This document shows, in pieces, positions 18,711 through 22,294 of a stretch of 64,000 bases of DNA (the first letter of the stretch is position 1; the number at the start of each line of letters is the position of its first letter). A program made the position numbers and the translations under genes. The notes below the pieces were generated by a model, which was given only the letters and a program-made list of their open reading frames with translations, did not search any database and had not been told where the DNA came from. The DNA comes from Glaciozyma antarctica PI12 (Eukaryota; Basidiomycota; Microbotryomycetes; Kriegeriales; Camptobasidiaceae): assembly GCA_002917775.1 (NCBI GenBank), contig KZ627148.1:334030-398029 (forward strand), in the 5' to 3' direction.

Positions 18711-19985
18711 TCATTCGATTCGCTGTTGTGCACCCTCTACCTCCGCTCCATCCACGCGCTCCTTTCTCGGCTTCTGCTTCGAGATGATCCACCCCGTCTT
18801 CGTAGGTTGCAGCAGCACCCCTCCCCCAGGCGTGAACGCCTTCCTCCCCTCCCCTCCTCCTCTCTCCCAGACCATCCGCCTCGCTTCCTCAATCGCGTGA
18901 TTCGAGATCCTCGCTTCCGACCCAACGACGAACGCCACCAGTTCGCGAAGGAGGGATCTCGCGACGTCCGGGTGCGAATGGGGAGGAAGTCGACCGGGGT
19001 GTAGCGTCGCGCTGCCCTTCGCCGGATAATCAATTGTGAAAGACTCTCGAGGAGCTGCGGGAAGAGGGTGTCGGAGGTCGGAAGGGAGAGTGCGATGAAG
19101 GAGGGCGAGAGGGCCTCCTGCTTCGTTCGAGAGGAGGTGAGGGTGGGCCAGGTGGCGCGCTTGGGTGAGGGCGAGAGAGTGCCGGAGCGCGTTGCGGGGG
19201 GTGTGGGAGGGGAGAAGGTTGGTTGGGTCGATGGAGAAGGGGAGGTGGGAGGTTTCGCATGTTGCGAGGAGGCGGGACTGGGGAGCTGTCAGTACGAGCG
19301 TAGGGGGAAGCAGGGAAGAACGCACCTTGTCGAACCCCAGGAGGGGCCGTACGATCACTCTCCCCGCATTCTGAGATAGTGGCTCAAACCCTGCTGGCAT
19401 ACGGCTCACTGCGCGCATTCCGTGTCCCCACAACAGCTTGTTCTCCACCTGATCTCCGCGATGGTGCCCCATCCAAAGGCTTCCTATCCGCTCCTCCTCC
19501 ATAAAGCGATGGATTAGCGTGAGACGTGCGAGACGTCCTGGTGATTCGGTCTTGTGTCCGCTCGGGAGGGTAGGAAAGGGCGGGAGGGACCAGGGGATTT
19601 CGAGGGTGTGGTGAGGGACGCCTGTGAGGGTGTTAGCTCCGTCTGAATGCGGCAAAGGAGAGCGTACCTATAGACTGAGCAAAACCTTTCACATCCTCTG
19701 CTTCCTGCGCACTCTCGACGCGGAAGCGGTGGTCGACTGTCAAGGCGAAGAGCTCGCGCGGTCGCTGCTCCGCCAAGGACTGGCAATCCTCGCGTATCCA
19801 GCGACTGAGTAGGTGCAGAAGCGCGATGGAATCGGGCCCTCCGGAGACTGCTACGGCTGCAGCGAGGGGGTGAGCGAGGGAGGAGCAGGAGACGCGAAGA
19901 ACGCACCGATTCGAGGAGACCAACCCTGGAGGGGCGTGATTCTGCGTACGGCGGCGGAGAACTCGCGAGCAGAGATTGAAAGCAT
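18711..19985 (-). CDS. TilS-like tRNA(Ile)-lysidine synthetase (PP-loop ATPase)
   Basis: N-type ATP pyrophosphatase predicted to attach lysine to C34 of CAU-anticodon tRNA(Ile), turning it from Met to Ile decoding; probably mitochondrial. The P-loop SGGPDS (19828-19845) sits in AVAVSGGPDSIALLHLL, followed by LFALTVDHRFR and the characteristic SLWMGHHRGDQVENKLL. Introns lie near 19860-19908, 19625-19670 and 19275-19325. The stop is at 18711-18713. I chose the ATG at 19985 (MLSISAREFSAAVRR), which gives the usual short leader and an amphipathic presequence-like start. An in-frame ATG at 20111 would add 42 residues rich in Asp and Arg and lie 5 bp from the MetRS start. Confidence 0.8.
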
Positions 19986-20116
19986 CTCCTCATCCTTCTC
20001 GTCGTCGTCGTCGTGGGAGCAGAGGGGTAGGAGGAAGAGAGCCGCAAGCGCTCTCGCGTCTCCCTCTCTCTCCCGTCTCCCAGATCTTGGACTTGGGCTG
20101 CTGCGCCTCATCAACG
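19986..20116. promoter_or_regulatory. Compact bidirectional promoter, TilS-like / MSM1
   Basis: The 131 bp between the chosen TilS-like start and the MetRS start must contain both promoters and both 5' UTRs, unless transcription begins inside the neighbouring genes. It holds a CGTCGTCGTCGT run near 20002-20013. No TATA-like box is evident. Promoter function is inferred from position only. Confidence 0.5.
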
Positions 20117-22294
20117 ATGCTGCTCCTCCGCCGATCTGCTCTGAGTCTCCCAGCTGAGCTCCTCTCGTTCGCCCGCCCTCAACCTCTCCGGCCCTTCTCC
20201 CGACCTCTCTCCACCTCCGCCTCCCCTCCTCCTCCCCAGAAGGCCTACTACGTAACCACGCCGATCTTCTACGTGAACGCCAGTACGCCCTTTCATCCCT
20301 CTCTCCGTTCTCCAGCTAACGTACCCGCAGACCCACACATCGGGCACCTCCACTCGAGCCTACATCGCCGACATCTACGCGCGACATCTACGCGCTCCTC
20401 CGACACCCCGACGCGCCCAAACCTATCCTATGTACGGGGACAGACGAGCATGGGCTTAAGATCCAGCGCGTAGCGGAGGGGAAGGGGATCAGTCCGAGGG
20501 AGCTGTGCGATGGAGTTAGTGAGCGGTTCAGGGTGAGTGCAAGCGCTGATTGAGAAGGGGGGAGCTAATGGTGTTGGTAGGATTTGGCAAAGGAGGCGGG
20601 GATTGGGTACGACGTGTTTATGAGGACGACGGAGGAGAGGCACAAGGTTGCTGTGGAGGCGGTTTGGGTGAGTGCGGGCCGGATGGGGAGAGGAGGGAGC
20701 TGATGTGGGGTGCAGAGAGAGTTGAATGCGAGGGGGTACATCTACAAGTCGTCGTACGAAGGCTGGTACGCTGTTTCGGACGAGGCGTACTATTCGCAAG
20801 GTCAGGTCGAGGAGGTTACGAACGAAGCGACGGGGGAGAAGACGATGGTGCGTTCGCTCTTGCTCTTTCAGCGGTGCAGTTACTCATGCAAATACGCAGG
20901 TCTCAATCGAAACGGGAACGCAGGTCGAATGGATGGAGGAGGAGAACTACAAGTTCCGTCTTTCGTCCTTTCGCGAGCCTCTTCTCGCTTGGCTCTCCAC
21001 AACACCAAACGGTACGCGACTCGTCCCTTGCTCTGCCTCTCACTAACCCGCGTGCAGTTCTTCAACCTCCGTCGCGCACTACAGCCCTCCTCGCCTCCCT
21101 CCTATCATCGACCTCAACCGACCTCCAAGATCTCTCCATCTCCCGCCCCGCCTCTCGCCTCTCCTGGGGAATCCCAGTTCCCGACGATCCTGATCACACG
21201 ATTTACGTCTGGATCGACGCGCTGGTCAACTACCTCACTGCTGCTGGGTATCCCTGGAAAGGTGGAGAGGCGTTCGCTGAAGGAGCGGTGTGGCCGCCGG
21301 ACTTGATGATCGTTGGGAAGGATATTATTCGGTTCGTCCTATCCTTTTTAATCGCCTCGGATGTCGCTGACTCTGACGCTACAGCTTCCATGCCCTCTAC
21401 CTCCCCGCCGTCCTCATGGCGCTCTCGCTCCCCCTCCCCACCAACATTCTCGCACACGGTCACTGGACGATGGACAAGTACAAGATGTCGAAGAGTCGAG
21501 GGAACGTCGCCGACCCGTTCGAGGCGATGAGCACTTGGGGAACCGATGCGATGAGGGCGTACCTTGCGAAGGCCGGAGGGAACTCGGCGAGCGATGCTGG
21601 TGCGTCCTCTCTCGTTCCAGTGCAGGCTCTTGGCTGATCTCGATAACGCAGACTACTCGGCGGAGGAGATTCGGAGGTTCTACAAGAAGGAGCTGGCAGG
21701 GACGATCGGCAACCTCGTAACTCGGTTGGCGGCGCCCTCGCTGCTGAACAAGCTCGAAAAGCCCTCGGACATCCACACTCTTCCTCCGCCGAACGCAGAG
21801 GACGCTGCCCTACTCAAAGCTCTCCGCGAGCTCCCTCGTACGTCGTCCCTCTCTCCGTTCGAACCTCGCTCACGACGTCCCATACAGAAACGTTTGAAAC
21901 CCACATGGCCACGTTCGACCTCCACCGCGCCATTTCCTCCCTCCTCGACGTTCTCTCCCTGGCCAACAAGCACCTCCAACTCCTCTCCCCCTGGCTCTCC
22001 ACCTCCTCTCCCTCCGTCGCCCATCGCGCCCTCTTCCTCTCAACCGAGAGTCTGCGGATCACAGGGATCCTAATGCAGCCTTTCATGCCGATCAAAGCGG
22101 GCAACTTGATGGATTTATTGGGGGTGCAGGAAGGACGGAGAGGGTGGGGAGATTTGGGAGTTGGGGAGGGAGGAGAGAGGGGGATGAGGGAGGGGGGACA
22201 GCTGTTTCCCGCGGTTCAGGTGGGAGGAGTGGTGGAAGTGAAGGAGAAGGGGAAGAAGGTGAAGAAGCAGAGGCGGGTCAAGGTAGAGGGATGA
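20117..22294 (+). CDS. MSM1: Mitochondrial methionyl-tRNA synthetase
   Basis: Class I aminoacyl-tRNA synthetase that charges mitochondrial tRNA(Met). The N-terminus ([20 protein letters not shown]...) is Arg/Ser-rich without acidic residues, a good mitochondrial presequence, and leads into [18 protein letters not shown] lies at 20336-20347, [11 protein letters not shown] follows, [15 protein letters not shown] is the core, and KMSKS at 21482-21496 sits in [15 protein letters not shown]. The anticodon-binding helical domain precedes the stop at 22292-22294; its tail is Lys-rich. The frame shifts twice in about 60 bp just after HIGH, beside a perfect 13-bp tandem repeat (20370-20395), so a literal translation breaks there although both sides are conserved. 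An assembly error is likely. Confidence 0.88.
20370..20395 (+). repeat. 13-bp perfect tandem repeat, two copies
   Basis: The unit GACATCTACGCGC occurs twice head to tail at 20370-20382 and 20383-20395, inside the mitochondrial MetRS coding region. The reading frame of the conserved protein changes across it. Confidence 0.9.

Follow-up and report, generated by a model that had tools for sequence, protein, structure and literature searches.

A nuclear TilS gene head to head with a mitochondrial-type methionyl-tRNA synthetase gene in Glaciozyma antarctica: an ordinary gene pair

A putative homologue of TilS, the bacterial tRNA-Ile lysidine synthetase, has already been reported in several fungi (Xavier et al. 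2012, as cited in PMC4558845; this and the other PMC sources are cited here from excerpts), whereas one passage of PMC12514573 confines the enzyme to bacteria. Here we describe such a gene in the yeast Glaciozyma antarctica PI12, where it stands head to head with the gene of a mitochondrial-type methionyl-tRNA synthetase (MetRS) in a stretch of 64,000 nucleotides, hereafter the window (C3:334030-398029; G+C content 59.8%), from an assembly of 18 contigs and 19.98 Mb. The bacteria-only statement is contradicted by the homologues in PMC4558845 as well as by the present gene. Like those homologues, the Glaciozyma gene is nuclear, is of bacterial type and is found alongside mitochondrial DNA (mtDNA) with CAU tRNAs in surplus of the initiator and the elongator; no difference from them has been established, and the divergent MetRS neighbour is the sole local point. 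A first-pass annotation of this DNA had proposed that the two genes share a switch for the identity of CAU-anticodon tRNAs. The positions and identities of the genes are confirmed, the regulatory reading is unsupported, and what we see is an ordinary gene pair: probably, two separate nuclear genes for mitochondrial translation lie head to head by chance in a compact fungal genome. The pairing carries no regulatory weight as yet, and the interest of the locus is that a nuclear TilS gene, ATA codons in real use and three CAU tRNAs of the mitochondria are documented together in one fungal assembly.

The spliced product of the minus-strand gene (Table 1; introns of 50, 46 and 48 nt; the frame ends with a stop at 18711 and offers ATGs at 19985 and 20111) scored 111.9 bits over residues 25-223 against TIGR02432, the NCBIfam model of the TilS N-domain. 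This is above the curated cut-off of 93.6 and bears out the naming of the PP-loop protein as TilS. It shares the PP-loop N-domain and the SGGxDS motif with the bacterial enzymes, the motif reading SGGPDS and aligning with SGGPDS of the solved chain 3a2k. The solved relatives were 3a2k (E 2.4e-15) and 1wy5 (E 0.0038), both named TilS, and 1ni5 (E 0.047), named mesJ, which we take to be the old name of tilS. The yeast protein differs from bacterial TilS in its length of 376 residues and in its domain matches: at E up to 1, Pfam returned PF01171 alone (114 bits) and none of the C-terminal TilS domains, and about 150 residues lie beyond the N-domain. The C-terminal domains are accessory and found in long bacterial forms. 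We did not count them as defining, as the solved TilS chain 1wy5 has just 317 residues. When the whole genome was searched, the PF01171 profile matched two exons, both belonging to this gene, and TIGR02432 matched two exons of the gene with 39.4 and 37.1 bits, each alone below the cut-off, in addition to one further weak match on C9 (21 bits). A pattern of six exact peptides, which reaches close relatives only, recovered no TilS relatives from viral contigs (seven stretches fit the pattern) or from bacterial and archaeal genomes, which were screened in case they held yeast DNA as a contaminant (26 stretches). If intron 3 were retained in transcripts, the protein would be 16 residues longer.

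The second gene starts with an ATG at 20117 and ends with the stop TGA at 22292-22294. Its naming as a mitochondrial-type MetRS holds up: the part downstream of a break in the assembled frame scored 340.3 bits against TIGR00398 (cut-off 336.35), and the best solved relatives were 4eg1, 5nfh, 3kfl and 4dlp (334 to 315 bits), whereas 5gl7, a chain named cytoplasmic, reached only 71.4 bits. Against NF008900, the partial protein remained with 406.7 bits below the cut-off of 598. The other clear MetRS in the genome, on C13, is a zinc-knuckle form, which presumably serves the cytosol. Two further partial-profile matches, on C13 and C1, were taken for other class I synthetases, and with these left aside the genome search recognised no second mitochondrial-type MetRS. 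In our reading, the MetRS of the window is of the mitochondrial/bacterial type, as its model scores and relatives suggest. Seven GT-AG introns of 46-53 nt follow the frame break, as found with a script permitting GT-AG introns only, and one more intron was read by eye at about 20283-20330.

The mtDNA lies at the start of C1 (C1:1-75127), with about 34-42% G+C in 2-kb steps outside a run of N. Running ARAGORN on C1:1-120000 yielded 25 tRNA genes, including three with the anticodon CAU and one Ile(GAU) but no Ile(UAU), and the 17,025 bases of N in this region could hide more. No tRNA genes were found within the 64-kb window. The three CAU tRNAs were aligned to E. coli references for the initiator (metY), the elongator (metT) and Ile(CAU) (ileX). 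The gene at C1:1177-1251, trimmed to 71 bases, scored 2.5 with metY, -10 with metT and -12.5 with ileX; its best score with the E. coli initiator and a C1-A72 mismatch in the trimmed form point to the initiator. The gene at C1:62651-62723 (metT 20, ileX 7, metY -2) appears to encode an elongator-Met-like tRNA. This leaves C1:58775-58848 (metT 8, ileX 4, metY -19) as the candidate tRNA-Ile(CAU), an assignment by elimination only, since one of the three must read AUA if AUA stands for Ile and a UAU tRNA is neither present nor imported. For the expectation that the mtDNA encodes a CAU tRNA(Ile), the three CAU tRNAs thus provide a candidate, whose Ile identity is indirect. From the mtDNA of Ganoderma lucidum, three different trnM-CAU genes have been reported (PMC3753355).

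ATA codons are in real use in the mitochondrial genes. They make up 16 of 1662 conserved codons, beside 72 ATT, 53 ATC and 57 ATG, in the Pfam-matched stretches of cox1, cob, nad1 and three Proton_antipo_M genes; these stretches are model matches, not curated exons, so that a few end codons are perhaps intronic, and some nine codons from a single gene were counted in two overlapping matches. TGA occurs 19 times and TGG 11 times in the same set. In three fragments compared with solved homologues, the residues opposite eight of the 16 ATA codons were I, V, L, T or F and in no case M: I or V in cox1; I or V, I or L, and T or V in nad1; and L, L, I and F at C1:1576-2376, a gene that its relatives mark as nad4. 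The facing residues were read by eye from the five best alignments per fragment, those of nad4 being with five near-identical sequences, and they are consistent with AUA as an Ile codon but no proof of it. Intron open reading frames (ORFs), sought by way of LAGLIDADG, gave a single match with one ATA in 68 codons, too few to use. With a TilS gene, three CAU tRNAs and ATA use together, lysidine-dependent decoding of AUA in these mitochondria is likely. The situation differs from that in R. taiwanensis RS1, for which two tRNA-Met genes and no ATA in 15 standard mitochondrial genes were reported, all codons being used at least twice in its intronic ORFs (PMC3633354); the present mtDNA has three CAU tRNAs and 16 ATA codons or more. 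A relative without ATA in its standard genes might be freer to lose TilS.

Under the reading that we prefer, in which the two genes are separate contributors to mitochondrial translation, TilS would be imported into mitochondria and use ATP and lysine to convert C34 of tRNA-Ile(CAU) to lysidine, and the lysidine-bearing tRNA would read AUA and be charged with Ile; we infer these steps from family membership and the mitochondrial tRNA set. The mitochondrial MetRS would charge the other two CAU tRNAs, the initiator and the elongator tRNA-Met(CAU). Because both 5' ends must fit within the 131 bp between the start codons, some promoter overlap is likely, which would then reflect compactness rather than a device that controls CAU identity. 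The gaps on the outer sides of the pair are short as well, namely, by eye, 57 bp from the stop of a WD40 gene (18653) to the TilS stop (18711) and, beyond MetRS, about 285 bp between its stop (22294) and a putative ATG at 22580. As the ORF census of the window was too sparse for a base rate of divergent pairs (eight of 30 ORFs had a Pfam match, two of these being parts of one WD40 gene), we took it from these two gaps and from the literature. Of 29 promoter regions selected in a related yeast, Rhodosporidium toruloides, 13 comprised the whole interval between divergent genes, 14 being predicted according to the discussion of that paper (PMC6599526); these genes were chosen by expression and the intervals extend up to 1 kb, not 131 bp, which makes the figure a rough guide.

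This looseness of the base rate weighs against the preferred reading, together with several observations on the pair and on the tRNAs. TilS and MetRS have CAU tRNAs of one organelle as their common targets, and a neighbour picked at random would fit less well in function. The alignment scores of C1:58775-58848 lean to the elongator Met (8) over Ile(CAU) ileX (4). The identity pairs of E. coli TilS, C4-G69 and C5-G68 (PMC12514573), are missing from all three mitochondrial CAU tRNAs, the candidate substrate included, in which the yeast system differs from the bacterial one, and all three carry G37 (both by eye). For these reasons, the score of the third tRNA, the missing pairs and G37, elimination alone leads to the substrate. 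Another TilS is reported to use different identity elements (PMC12514573), so that a substrate of the yeast enzyme need not have the E. coli pairs.

The head-to-head start of the two genes, 131 bp from ATG to ATG, is as the first-pass annotation had it. A 5-bp interval, obtained by starting TilS at the ATG at 20111, had been offered as an alternative and is unlikely; we rejected this start for its poor context, with T at -3, and for a 42-residue extension whose 11 acidic residues do not suit a presequence. The downstream ATG, at 19985, is preceded by G at -3. The first 30 residues from this short TilS start hold four Arg and one acidic residue, those of MetRS five Arg and one acidic residue, and in composition the claim of presequence-like N-termini stands for both. 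In hydrophobic moment it does not, as the observed value was reached by 91 of 1000 shuffles for the short TilS start and by 773 of 1000 for MetRS (504 of 1000 for the long TilS start), and the presequence character of the two N-termini appears to be compositional only. We infer that TilS is imported into mitochondria, and the same for MetRS.

The shared switch, in the form of a conserved co-regulated pair with a single bidirectional promoter to coordinate the modification of C34 with the charging by Met, is unlikely. Its attraction lies in the short interval between the starts and in a substrate anticodon common to both enzymes, and its biochemical premise is in print: MetRS is able to charge tRNA-Ile2(CAU) that lacks the modification (PMC12514573, PMC4558845), in the former source in bacteria. 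Bidirectional promoters are known, too, as eight of the 13 tested R. toruloides divergent intervals activated both reporters under one condition or more (PMC6599526); those promoters resemble the present interval in being the complete sequence between divergent start codons and differ in having been reporter-tested. The switch is nevertheless not supported, for the neighbouring gaps are short as well and divergent intervals are common in R. toruloides. MetRS is reported to discriminate 2- to 2000-fold, and tRNA-Met to be without lysidinylation (PMC12514573), so that a balance of TilS and MetRS dose is not obviously needed. Furthermore, among the papers listed in a literature search for a divergent TilS-MetRS pair, none had a title on such a pair. 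Still less probable is a conserved, co-transcribed TilS-MetRS pair in a yeast lineage with drifting AUA use.

A further alternative concerns the integrity of the MetRS gene. In the assembly, its frame is broken directly past the HIGH motif, and three frames are read in succession, a feature that the first-pass annotation had missed. The frame through the catalytic core is therefore not continuous in the assembly as given, which is a trait of this copy and not of the family. An intron was considered as the cause and rejected: the sole GT between 20325 and 20470 sits at 20432, so no GT-AG intron explains the break. As the rest of the gene is intact, the break is probably an assembly error. That MetRS is truly broken in the strain, and the gene pair partly decayed, would fit the three successive frames and the 13-bp tandem word within the break, with no GT-AG intron to account for them; this is very unlikely, since the downstream part is intact, with its seven introns and a frame open as far as the stop, the genome showed no other MetRS recognised as mitochondrial-type (the partial matches on C13 and C1 aside), the mtDNA still has respiratory genes, and an assembly or sequencing error is the simpler account.

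Least probable of all is that the PP-loop protein acts on another tRNA position or substrate and is no lysidine synthetase: the yeast protein reads HHRGDQVEN where 3a2k has HHGDDQVET, Pfam reports no C-terminal TilS domain for it, and the candidate tRNAs lack the E. coli identity pairs, but 1wy5 departs from the motif as well (HHLNDLLET), the protein lies above the TIGR02432 cut-off and reaches merely 31.2 bits with the rival TtcA model (cut-off 272), all three solved relatives listed are chains named TilS or mesJ, and a CAU tRNA-Ile candidate and ATA codons exist in the mtDNA.

Table 1. Features of the TilS-MetRS locus, in window coordinates
Feature	Position	Strand	Basis or remark
TilS gene (tRNA-Ile lysidine synthetase), 376 aa, four exons	18711..19985	-	Splice model, PF01171, TIGR02432, 3a2k match
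TilS exons	19985-19907, 19856-19668, 19621-19326, 19277-18711	-	Splice model
TilS intron 3, 48 nt, in frame, stop-free	19278..19325	-	Sequence and splice model
PP-loop motif SGGPDS of TilS	19828..19845	-	Counted by eye on the minus-strand sequence
Interval between the two start codons, 131 bp, pyrimidine-rich on the + strand before MetRS	19986..20116	.	Sequence
Alternative upstream TilS ATG, judged unlikely	20109..20111	-	T at -3, acidic extension
Mitochondrial-type methionyl-tRNA synthetase gene	20117..22294	+	TIGR00398, PDB relatives, introns
HIGH motif of MetRS	20336..20347	+	Sequence position
13-bp tandem word within the MetRS frame break	20369..20394	+	Copies at 20369-20381 and 20382-20394
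KMSKS motif of MetRS	21482..21496	+	Sequence position; motif in translation

The WD40-repeat gene next to TilS (window 17050-18653) is STRAP-like by eye and convergent with it. On C1, the mtDNA is joined to nuclear-like sequence within a single contig of 1.05 Mb that contains the 17,025 bases of N. A count of repeated 40-mers gave 210, of which the first ten start at positions 1 to 10 and come back at 74695 to 74704. Further 40-mers, starting with that at position 18, come back in inverted orientation around 26787, not far from the N run (first ten pairs). Seven other mitochondrial tRNAs for ANN codons carry A37 (by eye), unlike the CAU tRNAs with their G37; an odd second Lys(TTT) call at C1:802-877, taken for a Gln tRNA, was left out of this comparison. 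Two neighbouring mitochondrial Trp tRNAs, at C1:58348-58420 and 58457-58531, have the anticodons UCA and CCA.

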